Below, one piece after another: positions 2,501-39,829 of a stretch of 64,000 nt of DNA. Each line of letters begins with the position of its first letter. The first letter of the stretch is position 1. This stretch comes from an uncultured Mycoplasma sp. (lineage in GTDB: Bacteria; Bacillota_I; Bacilli_A; RF39; UBA660). Under the pieces are notes generated by a model, which saw only the letters and a list, made by a program, of their open reading frames with translations, had not been told where the DNA came from and did not search any database. The stretch is from positions 62,001-126,000 of the forward strand of contig CAMEXD010000001.1 in the NCBI GenBank assembly GCA_945947035.1, read 5' to 3'. The position numbers and the translations under genes were made by a program.

Positions 2501-3712
2501 ATGAAAAAAATTATAAAAAATACTTTAATAATATTTTTAGCAATAATCATTTTGGAATTTATAGTATTTATTTTTAAAAATTATCATGAAGTAAGTTATA
2601 AAATAATTAATAATAAAACTTTCGATATAGAAGAAATTTATAAAGATGGTAATTATTACTTTAATGTAAAATTTGATGATAATAATATTTATTTTGACTA
2701 TAAAAAAAGCTTTTCTAAAGCAAAAAAAGTTCTAAAAGATGTATTATATTATGAAAAAAATGACTTAAAATGTATTTTTCCAATATTTAAAAATAATGAA
2801 ACTCTAAATATATTATGTCTAAAAAATAATAATGTATATACTTATGATTATTTTAAAGATGATTTAGAAGACTTTGTTAGTGAAATAAAAGAAAAAGGAT
2901 TTAATGTAGAAGTATTTAGTGATAATTCTTCCTCTAAAAGATTATCATCGGCATTAGTTTATCAAGATAATATTTTAGATGATACTTACATATATATTTG
3001 GAAATATAATGGATTTTATAGTATTAATAATAAAAAATTAAGTCAATTGAATCTTTTTTCTAACGATATTTACATAAATAATTTTGGCATTAATGTTTCT
3101 AAATATTATGTAATACCTGATTATGATGAAAAGTATGAATATAGCAAATTTTATGTTGTTAATATGACAAACAATAAAATAAAAGAATTAAATCTAAAGA
3201 AAAATCAGAAAATAACTAATGATTATTATATAAATGGAGTAGTAGATGATAAATTATATATATTTGATACAGATAATTTGCTTCAGTATAGAATTAATCC
3301 TAAAAAATTAAAAATAGAACAAATTGGTAACAAAGAAACTGGTGGTTTATTTTATAATGGCGAATTTGAAAGACTTAATATTTATGATTTTAAAGAACAA
3401 AAATTAATCTTTAAAGAAGATTTAAAAATACCAAAAAATATAGAAAAATATGATGAAATTTATTCAAATGATGAAAACTTTTATTACATTTTAGATAATA
3501 ATTTTATTTATTATAATAAAACTTTAGATAAAAAAATATATTTATTTAAGATGGAAGATGTATCAAATATTTCTTTAATAGATAATACTTTATATTTTAT
3601 AAATAAAGATACTTTGTATTATTATGATATTTATCATGGAATTAAAAAAGTAATTACTTATGATGAATTGTTATTTAATAAAACAAATAGATATGCAATA
3701 TATAAAAAGTAA
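2501..3712 (+). CDS. Membrane-anchored protein of unknown function
   Basis: 403 residues with one N-terminal membrane segment (about residues 5-25) and a long extracytoplasmic part rich in Asn, Lys, Tyr and Asp. Short repeated stretches of the type D-D-x-Y-I/L-Y-I-x-x-x-N, alternating hydrophobic strands and turns (L-Y-I-F-D-T, Y-Y-I-L-D-N, L-Y-Y-Y-D-I), suggest a beta-propeller-like fold. I do not recognise a family. The start is weakly supported because no clear ribosome site precedes ATG 2501, although a promoter lies just upstream. A LysM gene follows 46 bases later, so a cell-envelope or spore-envelope role is possible. Confidence 0.6.
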   Translation: MKKIIKNTLIIFLAIIILEFIVFIFKNYHEVSYKIINNKTFDIEEIYKDGNYYFNVKFDDNNIYFDYKKSFSKAKKVLKDVLYYEKNDLKCIFPIFKNNETLNILCLKNNNVYTYDYFKDDLEDFVSEIKEKGFNVEVFSDNSSSKRLSSALVYQDNILDDTYIYIWKYNGFYSINNKKLSQLNLFSNDIYINNFGINVSKYYVIPDYDEKYEYSKFYVVNMTNNKIKELNLKKNQKITNDYYINGVVDDKLYIFDTDNLLQYRINPKKLKIEQIGNKETGGLFYNGEFERLNIYDFKEQKLIFKEDLKIPKNIEKYDEIYSNDENFYYILDNNFIYYNKTLDKKIYLFKMEDVSNISLIDNTLYFINKDTLYYYDIYHGIKKVITYDELLFNKTNRYAIYKK

Positions 3713-3758
3713 AAAATATAAAAATTTCTCATATACTTATTTTGAAGGAGGACTTTTT

Positions 3759-4211
3759 ATGGAAATATATATTGTTAAAGAAAATGATACTTTAGAAGGT
3801 ATTGCAAGTTACTATAATATTCCAGCATCAGAAATAATAAAAGCTAATAATTTGCAGTATCCTTATGAATTAAAAGTTAATCAACCTTTAAATATACCAA
3901 CTACAACATCTAATATATTTGATTATTATACTATTAAAAAAGGCGATACTTTATATAAAATTGCAAGTAGTAATAATATAAGTGTTAATAATTTAGCAGA
4001 GATAAATGGAATAGATCCTAATGATTATATTTATCCAGGACAAACAATACTTATACCAAAACCAGGTATCACAACTTATATAACAGGAATGGGTGATACC
4101 TTATCTTCTGTATCAAGATTTTTTAATACAACACCACAAGAATTAATTTACAATAACAATAATATCTATTTACTTCCAGAACAATTAATAGTTTTTAGAA
4201 AACAAATGTAA
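3759..4211 (+). CDS. Triple LysM-domain protein without signal peptide
   Basis: 150 residues made of three LysM repeats: residues 1-46 (Y-I-V-K-E-N-D-T-L-E-G-I-A), about 55-105 (Y-Y-T-I-K-K-G-D-T-L-Y-K-I-A with N-G-I-D-P-N-D-Y-I-Y-P-G-Q), and a weaker third copy (Y-I-T-G-M-G-D-T-L-S-S-V). LysM binds N-acetylglucosamine polymers such as peptidoglycan. There is no signal sequence, as in spore proteins like SafA that act at the cortex-coat boundary from the mother cell; with sporulation genes in the window this is a reasonable inference. ATG 3759 follows AAGGAGG at ideal spacing and replaces the longer reading at 3660, which lies inside the previous gene. Confidence 0.8.
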   Translation: MEIYIVKENDTLEGIASYYNIPASEIIKANNLQYPYELKVNQPLNIPTTTSNIFDYYTIKKGDTLYKIASSNNISVNNLAEINGIDPNDYIYPGQTILIPKPGITTYITGMGDTLSSVSRFFNTTPQELIYNNNNIYLLPEQLIVFRKQM

Positions 4212-4222
4212 AAAATTATTAA

Positions 4223-4248
4223 AAACTAATGATAAATTAGTTTTTTTC
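4223..4248 (+). terminator. Terminator after the LysM gene
   Basis: AAACTAAT, loop GATAA, ATTAGTTT, then a run of seven Ts. A TATAAT (4252-4257) follows within ten bases and probably serves dnaB, although no good -35 box is visible. Confidence 0.8.
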
Positions 4249-4275
4249 TTGTATAATAAAATTTAGGTGATCGAA

Positions 4276-5559
4276 ATGATTTTACTTCCAGCGGATAGTT
4301 ATGTAGTTATTAATAAAAGTATTATAACAGAAATAGATAAAAAAATTTTAATAGATTTATATCAACCAATAATAGGTCATAATGCAATTTCTTTTTACTA
4401 TACACTATTAAATGATTTAGAAAAAAATAGTAAAACAGAAGGATTATATAATCATCATCATTTACTTAGTATAATGCAACTTTCACTTACTGATATAAAA
4501 GTAGCTCGTGAAAAATTAGAAGCAGTAGGTCTTTTAAAAACTTATGTGAAAAAAGATCATATCAATAATTATATTTATGTACTTTATTCACCACTTTCTG
4601 CAAATGAATTTTTAAATCATCCTATTCTTAGTGTTGTATTATATAATAATGTTGGTAAAACTGAATTTATTAGAATAGTTGAAAATTATAAAACACCACG
4701 AATTAATTTTAAAGATTATGAAGATATAACAACTAAATTTGATGATGTGTTTACAACAGTACCAGCAGCATCATTTATAGAAAATAAAGATTTAGTAAAA
4801 AGAAATATCAATAAAATTTCATTTAATAACACAATTGATATCGAACTTTTAATTAGTAATTTAAATGGAATTGTAAAAGAAAATGCTATTAATAAAGATT
4901 TAATAGATTTAATTTGTAATTTAAGTTATGTGTATAATTTAGATACTATGACAATTGGAGATTTAATAAAAGCTAATGTCAAAGAAAATGGTGCAATAGA
5001 TAAAGATGCTTTAAGAAAAAGCTGTAGAAATTATTATCAATTTGAAAATAATAGTAATCTTCCAACTTTAATATATAGAAAACAACCTGATTATTTAAAA
5101 ACACCAAGTGGAGATACTAGTAAAAAAGCTATGATGATTTATACATTTGAAAATGCTAATCCATATCAATTTTTAAAAAGTAAATATAAAGATGGTAAAG
5201 TAGTTGAAAGAGATCTAAGACTTTTAGAATCACTTTTAGTAGATTTAAAATTAACCCCAGGAGTTGTTAATGTTTTAATCGATTATGTTTTAAAAGTAAA
5301 CAATCAAAGATTAAATAAAAATTATATAGAAACAATTGCTTCACAGTGGAAACGACTTGGCATTGAAACAGTTGAAGAAGCTATGAAAGCCTGCAAAAAA
5401 GAGCATAAAAATTTATTAAAATTAAAATCAGATCCTAAACTAATAGAAAAAGTAAAAGAAGCAAAAGTACCAGAATGGTTTGATAAAAATATTGAAAAAC
5501 AAGAAGTTACCGAAGAGGAACAAAATAAATTAAAAGAATTACTTAAAAATTACTCATAA
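4276..5559 (+). CDS. dnaB: Replication initiation and membrane attachment protein DnaB
   Basis: 427 residues matching the Bacillus-type DnaB helicase co-loader, which with DnaD and DnaI loads the replicative helicase at oriC and restart sites. The N-terminal part (L-P-A-D-S-Y-V-V, then L-I-D-L-Y-Q-P-I-I-G-x-x-A) is the winged-helix DDBH1 region. The C-terminal DDBH2 region carries the diagnostic Y-x-x-x-I-x-x-x-W motif (about residues 350-358, Y-I-E-T-I-A-S-Q-W). A charged tail follows. ATG 4276 is preferred over the GTG nine bases upstream because AGGTGA is correctly spaced for it. dnaI lies about 0.8 kb downstream, with two small genes between, a split form of the usual dnaB-dnaI pair. Confidence 0.92.
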   Translation: MILLPADSYVVINKSIITEIDKKILIDLYQPIIGHNAISFYYTLLNDLEKNSKTEGLYNHHHLLSIMQLSLTDIKVAREKLEAVGLLKTYVKKDHINNYIYVLYSPLSANEFLNHPILSVVLYNNVGKTEFIRIVENYKTPRINFKDYEDITTKFDDVFTTVPAASFIENKDLVKRNINKISFNNTIDIELLISNLNGIVKENAINKDLIDLICNLSYVYNLDTMTIGDLIKANVKENGAIDKDALRKSCRNYYQFENNSNLPTLIYRKQPDYLKTPSGDTSKKAMMIYTFENANPYQFLKSKYKDGKVVERDLRLLESLLVDLKLTPGVVNVLIDYVLKVNNQRLNKNYIETIASQWKRLGIETVEEAMKACKKEHKNLLKLKSDPKLIEKVKEAKVPEWFDKNIEKQEVTEEEQNKLKELLKNYS

Positions 5560-27868: not shown

Positions 27869-30184
27869 ATGGAGAATATAAATAAAAAACGAATTAAAAT
27901 TGCCATGATTGTTGCAATTGTTGGTACTATATCTTTATTAGTAGGGGTAAGTTATGCTATATTTAATACAGTATTAGAGTCAAGTAAAAATCAAGTAATA
28001 AAAGTAGGATCAATTGCTTTAAGGTTTACAGAAGAAAATGGTGGAATAGAATTATTAAACTTAGAAGAATTAACAGATGAAGAAGGAATAGCAAGCGATA
28101 ATTATTACTCTTTTAGTATAGAAAACGTTGGAAGTAATGATGCTTATTATGAAATCAAGTTAATAGATGATCCAACAAAAACAAATACTTTATCTGCTAA
28201 TTATGTAAGAGCAAATGTAGAAGTAGATGGAACATCAAAACCAGCAGTTAATATAGAAACTTCAGGAAGAGTAATTTATCAAGATACAATAACAGCAGGA
28301 ACAACAAAAAATTATAAATTAAGAATATGGTTAAACTTTGGAAGTTTAACAACTGAAGAAAAACAAGCATTATTAAATCAAGAAGCGTATTTTAAAATAA
28401 AAATTGTTGCTAGTCAGATAGTAGATAATAACTTAGATAAAAGTGGAGCAAATAAACCGGAATTAGCAACAGGAATGATACCAGTATATTATGATGAAAC
28501 AAATGAAGTATGGAAAAAAGCAGATGAAACAAATATAGATAGTAATAATAAATGGTATGATTATAATAGAAAAATGTGGGCTAATGCAGTAACAGTTTCA
28601 AGCACAAATAGAGATACTTATATGAATGCAGATGTTGGAACACCAATAAGTATGAATGATATAAATACGATGTGGGTATGGATACCAAGGTTTAGAGCAA
28701 CATCAACTGGAAGTTATAATGGTGGAACTAAAAGTTCTCCAGGAGCATTTAATATAACCTTTGTAGATAATAAAACAAATGCTCATGATGCATTTACATT
28801 TGGTGCACAAAGCTTAAATGGCTTTTGGGTAGGTAAGTTTGAAACAAGTCATGAAACATTATCAAGTAGTGAAACAGATAATAATTTGGGATGTACAAAT
28901 GATACCTGTAGTAATGCAAGTGGAATAATAATAAAACCAAATGTAGTATCATTAAGATATAATAATGTAAGTAATTTCTATTATGCAAGTTTAAGTATGA
29001 AACAAAGTGGTAATAGTTTTGGATTCGATACAACCAAGGATACAACACTAGATACTCATATGATGAAAAATAATGAATGGGGTGCAGTAGCATATTTGAC
29101 TCAAAGTATCTATGGTAGATGTACATCATCAACTTCTTGTACAGAAGTATATATCAACAATAGCGAAAGTTTTTATACAGGACGAAGTGGAGAAACTCCA
29201 GGGTCATCAAATACAACATCTACCACTGAAGGTACATATAAATATAATGAAAATAAAATAGAAACGAGTGTAGTAGAAGGAACAGGAACAAATGTAAGTA
29301 CAACAATAACAAATGATAGCACTTATCCATGGACAAATACAGATGGTGTATATTCTAGTAGTAACAATGGTCAAGATAGTACAACAACAACATTGACATT
29401 CTCATTTACATTAAGTTCAAAAGGAGTAGTATCATTTGATTATTCAGTATCAAGTGATAAAACTTGGCGCTCTTGGGATGAAATGTCATATACAATAAAT
29501 AATGGAACAACAGATGTAATAACAGGTGATAAAATAAGTGGAACAACAAGAGGAACAGAAGAATCAAGTCTTTCTTATGATAACAAAGTACATATATTAG
29601 ATGCAGGAACATATACTTTAACATTTACATATTCAAAAGATAGTTCAAATGCAGATGGATTAGATAAAGGATATGTTAAAAATTTAGTGATATTGGATGA
29701 GGTAGAAATAATAACTAAAGAAGTACCAAAAGGACAATTAGCATCAACAACAGGAAATATCTATGGCGTATATGATATGAGTGGTGGAGCTCATGAATAT
29801 GTAATGGGTGTATATACAGATGGAACACAAAACTGGTCAGGTGGTACATCAAATAATTCAGGATTTAGTGGATGCCTAGGAAGTGATTGTAGTAGTACAT
29901 ATGATGGAGTAGCATATCCAGAGAGTAAATACTATAATAGTTATACAAATACAGGAACATCAGGATCTCCAATAACAAATTATACAAGTGACATGCAACA
30001 TGCACTTACTGAAACAAAAAATTGGTTTGGTGATTACGCGTACTTTGTAAATGGCAGTAACCCTTGGTTTAGACGTGGCGGTTACTACTACGATGGTTCC
30101 TACGCAGGTGTTTTCTACTGTAGCTACTACGACGGCGATAGTTACAGCAATTACAGTTCCAGGTCCTCTTTGATAATTAACTAA
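27869..30184 (+). CDS. Large surface protein with C-type-lectin/FGE-like variable C-terminus
   Basis: 771 residues. One membrane segment near the start (about 10-30, ending V-G-V-S-Y-A-I-F) resembles TasA/camelysin-type signal anchors, and residues 30-185 look like that beta-sandwich. From about 195 a formylglycine-enzyme/C-type-lectin-like module begins (G-M-I-P-V-Y-Y-D, W-V-W-I-P-R-F, E-W-G-A-V-A-Y-L-T-Q-S-x-Y-G-R). A serine/threonine-rich beta domain (about 445-620) interrupts it; the lectin part then resumes with G-N-I-Y-G-V-Y-D-M-S-G-G-A-H-E-Y-V-M-G. The last 50 residues (W-F-R-R-G-G-Y-Y-Y-D-G-S-Y-A-G-V-F-Y) have the pattern of DGR variable regions. Probably a membrane-attached, surface-exposed binding protein. 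Its own promoter and terminators make it monocistronic. Confidence 0.8.
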   Translation: MENINKKRIKIAMIVAIVGTISLLVGVSYAIFNTVLESSKNQVIKVGSIALRFTEENGGIELLNLEELTDEEGIASDNYYSFSIENVGSNDAYYEIKLIDDPTKTNTLSANYVRANVEVDGTSKPAVNIETSGRVIYQDTITAGTTKNYKLRIWLNFGSLTTEEKQALLNQEAYFKIKIVASQIVDNNLDKSGANKPELATGMIPVYYDETNEVWKKADETNIDSNNKWYDYNRKMWANAVTVSSTNRDTYMNADVGTPISMNDINTMWVWIPRFRATSTGSYNGGTKSSPGAFNITFVDNKTNAHDAFTFGAQSLNGFWVGKFETSHETLSSSETDNNLGCTNDTCSNASGIIIKPNVVSLRYNNVSNFYYASLSMKQSGNSFGFDTTKDTTLDTHMMKNNEWGAVAYLTQSIYGRCTSSTSCTEVYINNSESFYTGRSGETPGSSNTTSTTEGTYKYNENKIETSVVEGTGTNVSTTITNDSTYPWTNTDGVYSSSNNGQDSTTTTLTFSFTLSSKGVVSFDYSVSSDKTWRSWDEMSYTINNGTTDVITGDKISGTTRGTEESSLSYDNKVHILDAGTYTLTFTYSKDSSNADGLDKGYVKNLVILDEVEIITKEVPKGQLASTTGNIYGVYDMSGGAHEYVMGVYTDGTQNWSGGTSNNSGFSGCLGSDCSSTYDGVAYPESKYYNSYTNTGTSGSPITNYTSDMQHALTETKNWFGDYAYFVNGSNPWFRRGGYYYDGSYAGVFYCSYYDGDSYSNYSSRSSLIIN
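30032..30172 (+). other. Predicted DGR-type variable region (VR)
   Basis: Base composition jumps here: 30061-30170 is about 48% GC by hand count, in a gene and genome far poorer in GC. Between 30083 and 30154 thirteen codons end in C and are TAC, AGC, GAC or GGC, all reachable from AAC by changing only adenines; the NNT codons GAT, AGT and AAT fit AAT in the same way. Elsewhere in this gene Tyr is mostly TAT. This is the footprint of adenine-directed mutagenesis by a diversity-generating retroelement. No template copy is present in the window. Confidence 0.72.
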
Positions 30185-30208
30185 TTGTTAATTTTAACAA
30201 TTAGTTAA
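30177..30208 (+). promoter_or_regulatory. Perfect 15-bp hairpin at the 3' edge of the variable region
   Basis: TTAACTAATTGTTAA (30177-30191) and TTAACAATTAGTTAA (30194-30208) are exact inverted repeats separated by TT; the TAA stop lies inside the left arm. No T-run follows, so it is a poor terminator. DGR targets are known to need a hairpin or cruciform just downstream of the variable region, which fits its position. Confidence 0.75.
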
Positions 30209-30278: not shown

Positions 30279-30316
30279 TTTCCAGTATTTCAAACAGGAT
30301 TTTGAAATACTGGAAA
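30279..30316. repeat. Perfect 16-bp inverted repeat
   Basis: TTTCCAGTATTTCAAA (30279-30294), loop CAGGAT, TTTGAAATACTGGAAA (30301-30316). Neither strand has a following T-run, so it is not a standard terminator; it could be part of a structured RNA or a small mobile-element relic. Confidence 0.7.
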
Positions 30317-35694: not shown

Positions 35695-36051
35695 ATGGAT
35701 TCTTTGGTTACTGATACTTTATTAGAAGTATTAATGATAAGTATTACTTTTTCAGTTATTTTAATGGCTTTAATTCAAAAAATAAAAGATTTAAAAATAA
35801 TTAATAAAAGTTATCAAGTATGGATTATTAATTTAATTCTTTCATTTTTAGTAGGAATTCCTTTTGCTATTATTTTTTATGATTTAAAGATTAATTTAGC
35901 AGTATGGGTAAGTGTATTTGGCTTTATTGGAGCTCCGACAATATATGAAACATTAAAAAAACAAAACATTATAAATTATAAACCAAAAAGTACTAGTTCT
36001 AATCAAGAAGTAATAACAATATCTAAAGATAATGAAATAAAAAGAAATTAG
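35695..36051 (+). CDS. Holin-like membrane protein
   Basis: 118 residues with three membrane segments (about 10-28, 42-62, 67-85), a short loop of charged residues (Q-K-I-K-D-L-K) and a polar tail. It resembles phage holin-region membrane proteins, with the pattern W-V-S-V-F-G-F-I-G-A-P-T-I-Y-E-T-L-K-K before the tail. AGGAGGT precedes ATG 35695. The stop overlaps that of the convergent gerB-like gene by four bases. The pair may be a phage remnant kept by the host; a release function for spores or mother cells is speculation. Confidence 0.5.
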   Translation: MDSLVTDTLLEVLMISITFSVILMALIQKIKDLKIINKSYQVWIINLILSFLVGIPFAIIFYDLKINLAVWVSVFGFIGAPTIYETLKKQNIINYKPKSTSSNQEVITISKDNEIKRN

Positions 36052-37142
36052 CTTTTTTTAGCTGATTTCTTTTTGGATAACATAATTAAGATAAAATTGA
36101 CAAATAAAACAATATACACAAAAGAAGAATAAAGAGGAAATTTAGTAAATAAATTGATAATTAAATAATTTTTAAACAAAGTAATAGAAACAAGAGGAAT
36201 AGCAAAGCAAAGAAAAACTGTAATAATATTTAAAATAAGATCTTTTTTTATTTTAAATGTAGTTTTTACATAAGCTATTAGACTATAGAACAAAACAGCA
36301 AGGGAAGTAAATGATGCAATTATAATAGTGGACGCTAAAACATTTTCAATTCTTTGAATAAAATCAAAAGCTTTAACTTTTTTTAAAAGTGCATATTCAG
36401 GATAAGTAAATATAATACTCATATCAATACCAAAAACACCTATGATTAAAAGAAAAAATACAAGTACAAACAAATAACCAAATACATAACCATAGATTAT
36501 TCTTCTTTTTAATTTTTTAGAGTCTGTAATATCACTTTTTCTTATGCTAATTAAGCTAATTAAAGGTACAATTATAAAGGTAGGAAACATTAAAGAAGTT
36601 TTTATGAAGTTTTCATTAGAGACATCAAAAATAGGTAAATAATTATCAAATTCAACAATTGGAATTAAAAAGATCCATGCAAATAAGATAATCAACATAA
36701 ATAATAAAAATAAGATAATGTGACATCTGCCAATGACTTCAAGTTTTTTACAAACAACCAAAGAAAGAGAAGTAGAAAGAAGCGCAACTATCAAGTAATA
36801 AGATGTTCTTGATAAAAATTGACTGACAGTAAAAGTAACAATAGACCATGATTCAACAAATATTATATAAATAATTGCAATTACATATAAAATGTTTAAT
36901 ATTTGTCCAAGCCATTTAAATTTTTCTTTATTGTATTCAAAAATGTTTTTATCATCTGCTTTATCAATTATATAAACAATCATTAAAAGAGGAATGAAAC
37001 CTATTAAAAATCCAACAAAAGATGAAAATATTGCTGCATGTTTTCCTGTTTCTAAAACTAAAGTGTTACCAAATCCAGGAAATAAAATAACTCCTAAAAA
37101 AAATGTAAATACAAATAATTCTTTTGAACTTATTTTACTCAT
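36048..37142 (-). CDS. Spore germination permease-like protein (GerAB/GerKB family)
   Basis: 364 residues with about ten membrane segments, an APC-type fold of the endospore germination permease family (PF03845). The start I-S-S-K-E-L-F-V-F-T-F-F-L-G and the middle W-S-I-V-T-F-T-V-S-Q-F-L match. In germinant receptors this subunit recognises the small-molecule germinant. It is the last of three genes on the minus strand in the order A-C-B, two bases after the C subunit. Confidence 0.88.
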   Translation of the reverse strand: MSKISSKELFVFTFFLGVILFPGFGNTLVLETGKHAAIFSSFVGFLIGFIPLLMIVYIIDKADDKNIFEYNKEKFKWLGQILNILYVIAIIYIIFVESWSIVTFTVSQFLSRTSYYLIVALLSTSLSLVVCKKLEVIGRCHIILFLLFMLIILFAWIFLIPIVEFDNYLPIFDVSNENFIKTSLMFPTFIIVPLISLISIRKSDITDSKKLKRRIIYGYVFGYLFVLVFFLLIIGVFGIDMSIIFTYPEYALLKKVKAFDFIQRIENVLASTIIIASFTSLAVLFYSLIAYVKTTFKIKKDLILNIITVFLCFAIPLVSITLFKNYLIINLFTKFPLYSSFVYIVLFVNFILIMLSKKKSAKKS

Positions 37143-37144
37143 AA

Positions 37145-38257
37145 TTATTCTCCTTCAGTACTTCGATAAACATTTCCATATCTAAATAATTTGGAATTAA
37201 CATTTAAATTGATTTTAGCAATTTCATAAATATTTTTGTTTTTAAAATTATCATATTCTTTATAATATTTTTTATATATCATTTTTTCTAATCCTAAAAT
37301 ATCGATATTATTAGCTTTGCAAGTTTCAATTAAATCATTTAAATATTTTTTTATTTCTTTATTAATGAGATCTTGAATTTCTTCTTGGACATCTTTTTTT
37401 TCTAAATTTATTTTTTCTCTTATTTCTGATGGTTGAGCTGAAATATCAATATTAATATCAACTGTAACTTCATCATCATTAATTGATACATCAAAACTAT
37501 TCTTTGGTCTAACTAATAAGATATCCATTAAAATATCTTTGTATTCAATATTAATTCCAATATCAAATAAATTATTGTTAATTAAATTATAAGCAATTGC
37601 TGTATTATTATTTAATTTAATAAATTCATTTTTTTTATTATCCAAAGCAACAACACCAGTTAATTTGTTTTTTTCATCAACTAATTCAATTGATGTTAAA
37701 ATAGGAGTTTGTTTTCCCTCTAAAAAAATGCTAATTAACTCTTCCATATTAAACTGTACAGTAGTTCCTTGTCTAAGAGTTGAAACTTTTAAAGATTCTA
37801 AGATTTCTTTACTAGCTACAGAATTAGAGTTTTCACTACTTTTTCCTAAAATATCTTTAGCACTTCCAGTAGGATTTATTAAAACATCAAAATCATTTCT
37901 AGTTGATGGACTCCTTAAAAAATAATCAAATAAATTGTCAACTTTTGATTCTAGTATTGATTCTCCTAAAACAACTAATTTTAGATGTCCTAAATAAAGC
38001 ATTTTAGGATATGATAATGAAACATTTCTAAATGCTTGAGTAATAGTTTCTCCCTTCGATTCATAAAGAATAGTTTTAGTCTGACTTGTTCCTTCACCAC
38101 TTTGTTGTAAGTCAAGAATTTGTACTACGATTTCATAATTGCCATCTTTATAATCAATTCCTAAAGCATTTGCAATTGCCAAATCATTTAATTCAATATA
38201 ACTACAACCAGTTAAACAAAAACAAGTAATCAAAATTAAAGTTATTATTTTTTTCAT
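37145..38257 (-). CDS. Germination lipoprotein of the Ger(x)C family
   Basis: 370 residues with a lipoprotein signal (K-K-I-I-T, lipobox L-T-G-C) and the diagnostic mature start E-L-N-D-L-A-I-A-N-A-L-G-I-D-Y, which matches the Ger(x)C family (domain I); the C-terminal part resembles domain III. It forms the outer lipoprotein subunit of a germinant receptor with the A and B subunits. ATG 38257 overlaps the stop of the A subunit by four bases (ATGA-type overlap). Confidence 0.92.
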   Translation of the reverse strand: MKKIITLILITCFCLTGCSYIELNDLAIANALGIDYKDGNYEIVVQILDLQQSGEGTSQTKTILYESKGETITQAFRNVSLSYPKMLYLGHLKLVVLGESILESKVDNLFDYFLRSPSTRNDFDVLINPTGSAKDILGKSSENSNSVASKEILESLKVSTLRQGTTVQFNMEELISIFLEGKQTPILTSIELVDEKNKLTGVVALDNKKNEFIKLNNNTAIAYNLINNNLFDIGINIEYKDILMDILLVRPKNSFDVSINDDEVTVDINIDISAQPSEIREKINLEKKDVQEEIQDLINKEIKKYLNDLIETCKANNIDILGLEKMIYKKYYKEYDNFKNKNIYEIAKINLNVNSKLFRYGNVYRSTEGE

Positions 38258-39705
38258 AATTTTTTACTCCTTTTAAAGTTGTCATCAGTAAGAAGCGGAT
38301 TTCTTAAGTTATCATTTTTTATATCTTTTTTAAAGATACTTTTAATTGCAAAATTTAAGTTAAATGGTGCAAAAGGCCATAAATAAGGTTTGCCAAATGA
38401 TTTTAAACTTGCCATCATTATAATAAAGATAAAACCACAAAATGTTACTCCAGGAATTCCTGCAGTTGTTGCAAAAATCATAAATAATAGTTTCCAAAAT
38501 CTAATTCCATTTACCATTGCTTGACCAGTAAACATTAAAGAACAAATTGCTGATACTGCAACAACAATTACCATAATAGGAGAAACGATACCAGCAGCAA
38601 CAGCAGCATCACCTAAAACAATTGCACCTAAAATACTTATGGCACTACCTGATAAACTAGGCATTCTAATATCACTTTCACGTAATATTTCAAAAATAAG
38701 AGTCATTCCTAAAGCTTCAACAAAAGCAGGAAAAGGAACACCTTCTCTTTGAAGAGCAAAATTAATAAGAAGCGATTCTGGTATAGTTTCATGATTAAAT
38801 GTTGTTATAGCAATATAAAATGCCGGTAAAACTATAGCTATAAAAAATGAAATATATCTTATAATTCTTGTAAAAATAACATTTTTAGATTTTTGGTAGT
38901 AATCTTCTGATGCATTAAATAAATCAGTAAAGAATGTTGGAATAATTAAAACACCAGGTGAATTTTCAACAATAATACATATTTTTCCTTTAAGAAGATT
39001 CATAACAGCAACATCAGGTCTTTCTGTTGGATAGATTAAAGTAAAAACATTATTTTTACTTTCTATATATTCTTTAATGTAATTACTATCAATTATGCCA
39101 TCAACATCAATTTTGTCTAATTTTTCTTTAACAGAATCCAAAAGTTTTTGTTCAATAATATTTTTCATATATAAAATACCAACTTTAGATTTTGTTTCTC
39201 TTCCAATTATTTTTTCTTCAATTATTAAGTTATTTGTTTTAATTCTTTTTCTAATTAAACCAATATTATTAAGATAATTTTCATTAAAAGAATCTTTTGG
39301 ACCAAGAATAGCTTGTTCAACGACTGGTTGTTCAATAGCTCTTGATAATTCTTTTTTTGCTTCAATAGCAAGTGCTTCTTTCTTTTTATCAAATAAAATA
39401 ATAGCAAATCCATTGCCTAAATTTTCATATATTTTATCAAAGTTTTCTATTTTTTCAATTTCAACACTTGGTATAGTATTATATAAAATATTAATTATAT
39501 CATCTTTTTTTATATTATTTTTTTCTAAATTACTGATGTTTTTTAAAATGAAATCATTGACATTTTTGTTATCGCATAAAGAAGAATTGTATACTAAAGA
39601 AATTTTGGTATCAAATAAAATAATATCTCTAAAGGATATATCAATTGAATTATTATAATCAGATTTTATTTTATTAATGTTTTTTTCTAAATCACTATAA
39701 ATCAT
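38254..39705 (-). CDS. Germinant receptor A subunit (GerA/SpoVAF family)
   Basis: 483 residues. The N-terminal soluble part contains D-I-S-F-R-D-I; the middle has P-K-D-S-F-N-E-N-Y-L-N-N-I-G-L-I-R-K-R-I, the Y-P-T-E-R-P-D segment and E-N-S-P-G-V-L-I-I-P, all typical of GerAA and SpoVAF. About five membrane helices follow, ending in P-Y-L-W-P-F-A-P-F-N. GerA subunits form the oligomeric channel of germinant receptors. ATG at 39703-39705 is chosen because TGGTGA precedes it; a longer reading to 39771 has no ribosome site. Confidence 0.93.
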   Translation of the reverse strand: MIYSDLEKNINKIKSDYNNSIDISFRDIILFDTKISLVYNSSLCDNKNVNDFILKNISNLEKNNIKKDDIINILYNTIPSVEIEKIENFDKIYENLGNGFAIILFDKKKEALAIEAKKELSRAIEQPVVEQAILGPKDSFNENYLNNIGLIRKRIKTNNLIIEEKIIGRETKSKVGILYMKNIIEQKLLDSVKEKLDKIDVDGIIDSNYIKEYIESKNNVFTLIYPTERPDVAVMNLLKGKICIIVENSPGVLIIPTFFTDLFNASEDYYQKSKNVIFTRIIRYISFFIAIVLPAFYIAITTFNHETIPESLLINFALQREGVPFPAFVEALGMTLIFEILRESDIRMPSLSGSAISILGAIVLGDAAVAAGIVSPIMVIVVAVSAICSLMFTGQAMVNGIRFWKLLFMIFATTAGIPGVTFCGFIFIIMMASLKSFGKPYLWPFAPFNLNFAIKSIFKKDIKNDNLRNPLLTDDNFKRSKKL

Positions 39706-39829
39706 ATTAATCACCATTTCATACTTATTATTAACAGAATATAAAAAAAATATATTTCTTTTTTTCGACAAAATTTTATTTTATGGGATGCTATTATAAA
39801 AAACAATTTTTTATGAAAGGAATATTTTT

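Follow-up and report, generated by a model that had tools for sequence, protein, structure and literature searches.

Diversity-generating retroelements (DGRs) are known machines that rewrite chosen bases and so vary what a protein can bind. Treponema denticola provides a precedent for dispersed DGR targets of the TvpA type: one cassette of reverse transcriptase (RT), accessory gene and template repeat (TR) is accompanied by as many as seven targets, surface-protein genes that lie far from it (PMC4891356). In the DGR of Bordetella phage BPP-1, a hairpin just after the variable region (VR) is required for target recognition (PMC3240598). A large contig-based survey would, by its own method, miss targets that lie far from their cassette (PMC8144416). 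Here we analyzed a window of DNA, the whole stretch of 64,000 nucleotides, in which an earlier note had read positions 30032-30172 as a DGR-type VR closing a large surface protein. Codon bias, paralogue tails, the cassette of a sister genome and the predicted fold all bear this reading out.

The target gene is an open reading frame on the plus strand (27869-30184) of 771 codons, with its stop codon at 30182-30184. The encoded protein of 771 aa has a hydrophobic segment in its N-terminal part, at about residues 10-33. Alignments, Pfam, a profile match and a paralogue model place a C-type-lectin/FGE-sulfatase-like domain at 28466-30181 (plus strand), split by a beta-rich insert at 29297-29698 of the same strand. 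The FGE-sulfatase family of Pfam matched 7 of 18 target-family members (best E 5e-4), and a sequence profile of the C-terminal domain agreed weakly (E 1e-3) with 5vf4, the structure of TaqVP, which is a crystallised DGR variable protein with a C-type-lectin fold. The fold was assigned with an insert-free paralogue; modelling of the window protein gave a weaker result, which matched through the insert alone. The paralogue model (pLDDT 78, pTM 0.87) had TaqVP as its sole significant fold match (E 5.5e-7, probability 1.00), in agreement with the earlier claim of a C-type-lectin-fold target. The VR is thus predicted to form part of a C-type-lectin fold at the C terminus of a surface protein. The insert, in the moderate-confidence model of the window protein, gave Foldseek matches to CBM4/CBM6/CBM35-type folds. 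This CBM-like insert is present in only some paralogues, as alignment found it also on contigs C10 and C15 of the window's genome and on contig C50 of the sister genome. No convincing Rfam match was obtained around the target gene. Elsewhere in the window, GerA, GerAC and spore permease germination genes lie at 36051-39771, which in a genome of 1.2 Mb suggests a small-genome spore former.

The VR segment (plus strand) corresponds to codons 722-771, the final 50 before the stop, and was delimited by codon bias, by its dispersed copies and by homology to a TR/VR pair of the sister genome described below. Its GC content is 46.1%, compared with 30.1% for the remaining gene and 24.0% for the whole window; none of 6386 sampled 141-base stretches of the window was as GC-rich. 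The GC elevation noted earlier therefore stands, with the hand count of about 48% replaced by the computed value. C and T occupy the third base in a ratio of 23:19 in the VR segment and 32:282 in the remaining gene (Fisher p = 1.4e-10), and tyrosine is encoded by TAC in 11 of 11 cases in the segment as opposed to 2 of 42 outside it. An excess of C-ending codons between 30083 and 30154 had also been reported, as 13 codons that were all TAC, AGC, GAC or GGC. The excess is real, and those 13 codons fit, but the count is 15, since TCC (30098) and TTC (30113) had been missed. The hypervariable codons are directly followed by a constant 3' end, AGTTCCAGGTCCTCTTTG (30155-30172, plus strand), which is nearly invariant across the type-2 copies defined below. 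This element occupies the IMH position and is a candidate IMH (initiation of mutagenic homing), where homing would begin.

The window belongs to a genome of 1.17 Mb in 42 contigs, 70.9% complete (G000), in which VR-type tails end at least eight genes on eight contigs. Six more full-length copies of the segment, with 75-89% identity, are found on contigs C6, C8, C10, C14, C15 and C16; beside these, contig C3 carries a further related VR segment, and the whole target protein family occupies at least 13 loci. We call tails like that of the window type 2; seven of them were aligned, one of which came from the sister genome. The pairwise difference at codon positions 1/2/3 is 0.32/0.28/0.17 in the type-2 tails and 0.16/0.14/0.24 in the upstream parts, so that the tails invert the pattern usual in protein evolution. 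Across the seven tails, 21 hypervariable positions give 147 codons, and C is the last base in 86 of them. When the amino acids were kept and synonyms were drawn by the gene's own third-base usage, the mean was 12, and none of 5000 draws reached 86. C-ending codons in the last 50 number 19-25 at eight loci of G000 and 1-10 in three other paralogues of that genome and five of the sister genome. Because these low-C-ending paralogues exist, the NNC excess is a property of a subset and not of the protein family; NNC-rich and NNC-poor tails side by side are as expected if a template still renews some of them and others have been abandoned. Among the variable third positions of the type-2 tails, 13 of 19 drift without adenine, mostly between C and T, and therefore some copies are not fresh. 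A further test, whether every column with at least three bases contains adenine, held for 26 of 26 columns in the VR, yet also for 36 of 36 upstream. It was dropped as evidence because the genome is AT-rich and the upstream columns behave likewise.

Could such tails arise with no retroelement at all, by diversifying selection together with recombination or gene conversion among paralogues? Many paralogues able to exchange sequence are available, and a hairpin with a mixed stem on contig C55 of the sister genome looks recombinant. However, recombination does not generate TAC, AGC, GAC and GGC in a genome of 24% GC, nor does it keep the third base constant as the first and second vary, and the family also has paralogues that lack the pattern. 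Together with the template evidence given below, this makes the explanation extremely improbable for the window.

As the earlier note had stated, there is no template repeat or RT in the window, and none was found in the remaining G000 assembly. The template (a near copy of the segment with mismatches at template adenines), DGR RT and accessory protein that the note proposed to seek in the whole genome did not turn up either: searches of the 70.9%-complete assembly for RVT_1 and relatives of the sister-genome RT, for Avd, for a TR and for a partner with MutS domain I (MutS_I) all gave nothing. The note would have taken the lack of both TR and RT in the complete genome as a refutation; an assembly of this completeness provides none.

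We compared one sister genome of the same genus, 93% complete (G001), and its 7.7 kb contig L031 holds a whole cassette with target VR, TR, Avd and RT. The target gene lies at 853-2955 of this contig and is followed by a gene for a MutS domain I protein of 137 aa (3326-3739, Pfam E 3.9e-7), the type-1 TR (3780-3920), Avd (4098-4439) and the RT (4420-5442, RVT_1 E 2.9e-19). Avd matched PF22296 with E 3.2e-15, above the cut-off, and NF033474 with E 4.3e-15, below the cut-off of that model. The best solved relative of the RT is 8ub7 (E 6.8e-45), whose record is titled just "Reverse transcriptase" and which we take to be the RT of the BPP-1 DGR. The TR differs from its adjacent VR at 22 of 42 adenines and 2 of 99 other bases, and from a second VR of the same genome, on contig C55, at 22 of 40 adenines and 2 of 98 others. 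Compared with the C3 VR of G000, the genome of the window, it differs at 20 of 42 adenines and 0 of 99 other bases. The VR thus differs from the TR almost solely at adenines for template type 1, C3 included (p about 1e-12). The C3 comparison indicates that a template of the G001 type has acted on the window's lineage. Adenine-limited mismatches to a TR beside a DGR RT are direct evidence against an origin of the tails by recombination alone, which for template type 1 is already refuted. A protein with MutS_I only directly precedes the TR in G001 and is possibly an accessory factor. A similar protein (L103 1043-1447) precedes a TR-like copy on contig C53 of G001 (L103 1437-1628), which has the 5' flank of the TR and a VR-like end, is followed by neither Avd nor RT, and resembles a template that has decayed or recombined.

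The VR of the window is homologous, position for position, to the type-1 TR and VR of G001. The type-1 TR was considered as its template and rejected, as non-adenine mismatches outnumber adenine ones in the alignment. Because of these many non-adenine differences, the window VR would have to derive from another template, and we infer that it belongs to a second template type. For type 2, codon positions and the NNC pattern point indirectly to the adenine rule. A type-2 TR would end at its 3' side in a match to AGTTCCAGGTCCTCT and would carry AAC or AAT at the hypervariable codons. Searches with such an inferred template found no type-2 TR in G000 or G001, and the type-2 patterns had no match in IMG/VR; the same template matched TRs that neighbour RTs elsewhere in the family. 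More than one template does occur within a family genome. In G175 the RT is followed by a tandem pair of unlike TRs (L148, reverse complement, 1129-1247 and 1550-1669), and G185 has a tandem pair of identical TRs (L149, 493-612 and 913-1032).

These absences raise the question of whether the VR of the window is a leftover, in a lineage that once had a cassette, or at least a type-2 template, and lost it, so that the segment no longer changes. RT, Avd, TR and the MutS_I partner are all absent from the assembly, the type-2 template is also missing in 93%-complete G001 despite a type-2 tail there, the copy on C53 shows a TR-like sequence decaying without an RT, and T. denticola strains without the core cassette retain VR genes (PMC4891356). 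On the other hand, the window tail retains its NNC pattern, the C3 tail matches the sister-genome TR at 99 of 99 non-adenine bases, and frozen paralogues look different, with 1-10 C-ending codons among their last 50 instead of 18-25. Moreover, the assembly covers just 70.9% of the genome. We therefore regard loss of the cassette as unlikely, and favor the interpretation that the segment is a DGR target VR that is most probably served in trans by a cassette absent from the 71%-complete assembly.

Strains and the wider family were also compared. IMG/VR contigs L165 and L166 carry the same cassette, with an RT 97% identical to that of G001. As the earlier note had anticipated for strains, variation is concentrated at template adenines: the VRs of these type-1 cassettes differ between G001 and IMG/VR at 21 of 40 template adenines and 5 of 98 other positions. 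For the G001/IMG-VR cassette alone, this comparison of sequences favors ongoing mutagenic homing. The two TRs (L031 3780-3920 in G001 and L166 4449-4590) differ in one codon, CTT versus AAT. The AAT form, from IMG/VR, fits the VRs better as their source, which raises the possibility that rewriting has also altered the template of G001. A serine recombinase gene lies about 2 kb after the RT in L166, and a similar gene is cut off by the end of the G001 contig; judging by these protein sequences, the cassette is probably carried by a mobile element. L165 and L166 are classed as viral; besides the DGR cassette they encode Fic-like proteins and a serine recombinase, and may represent a mobile element rather than a phage. 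Relatives of the RT (E <= 1e-10) are present in 92 of 193 family genomes, about half of those sampled. In some 27-30 genomes the match is strong, at identities from about 47% upward, while the weaker relatives may belong to other RT classes. Clean A-only TR/VR pairs were found at eight further loci in family genomes and named assemblies.

Two hairpins follow the VR. The first is an inverted repeat at 30177-30208 (plus strand) with a perfect 15-bp stem and a 2-nt loop, which spans the stop codon directly past the VR. A stem of 13-17 bp is found at the same place on C3, C6, C8 and C14, on contig C46 of G001 and on an IMG/VR contig, and it is broken on C10 and C16. An inverted repeat just past the VR agrees with a DGR target; it occupies the position of the BPP-1 hairpin and may, by analogy, act in homing. 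The second is a conserved hairpin at 30279-30316 (no strand assigned) with a TTTCAAACAGGATTTTGAAA core and a covarying outer stem. Its core (TTTCAAACNGGATTTTGAAA) has 10 copies in two genomes (the window; C3, C8, C15 and C16 of G000; C46, C50, C51, C55 and C67 of G001), of which nine are downstream of target-family members and the exception, on C51 of G001, follows another gene. The outer stems are compensatory between copies (CCAGTA/TACTGG, CCATA/TATGG and CGATA/TATCG). We considered this hairpin as an intrinsic terminator and rejected the idea, as no T run follows directly on either strand.

Taken together, the genus has a dispersed system of one cassette and many chromosomal target genes elsewhere. 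The cassette is ordered as target, MutS_I-domain protein, TR, Avd and RT, then a serine recombinase gene in G001 and L166. The RT and its partner Avd would copy TR RNA, with random bases going in opposite adenines, and the resulting cDNA would replace the matching 3' end of a target gene. Asparagine codons of the template (AAC/AAT) would thereby become NNC/NNT codons on the face of the C-type-lectin-fold surface protein that presumably binds ligand. The window gene, of type 2, is one of at least eight such targets in G000 and would be diversified in trans by a cassette missing from the assembly. A larger scheme is speculative and unlikely: a recombinase-linked cassette would move between strains and, using several templates, diversify a resident repertoire of at least eight dispersed lectin genes; the 30279-30316 hairpin and the MutS_I-only protein would be parts of the system.

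The system would place much of one surface-lectin family of a small-genome bacterial lineage under programmed hypermutation, and fresh and decayed tails in one genome would permit measuring how quickly a target is rewritten or given up. As a DGR it is of an ordinary kind; what is notable is the dispersed repertoire, the two template types and the VR-linked hairpin. Like T. denticola, in which two TR types occur among strains and strains without a cassette keep VR genes (PMC4891356), it combines more than one type of repeat with VR genes apart from a cassette. Unlike T. denticola, the window's genome has at least eight NNC-rich targets in 1.2 Mb of low GC, with the two VR types together, and the cassette here is followed by a serine recombinase gene. 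It resembles the BPP-1 DGR in the sequence relation of the RT, in Avd, in adenine-limited change and in a hairpin right after the VR. The stem here, however, is AT-rich, 13-17 bp long, with a 2-nt loop, and lies over the stop codon, whereas that of BPP-1 is GC-rich, 7-10 bp long, with a GRNA loop (PMC3240598); the targets here are cellular surface proteins and that of BPP-1 is a phage tail protein. With TaqVP (5vf4), the window protein shares the character of a DGR variable protein with a predicted C-type-lectin fold, although sequence identity is 15-16% and the window protein has the extra CBM-like insert.
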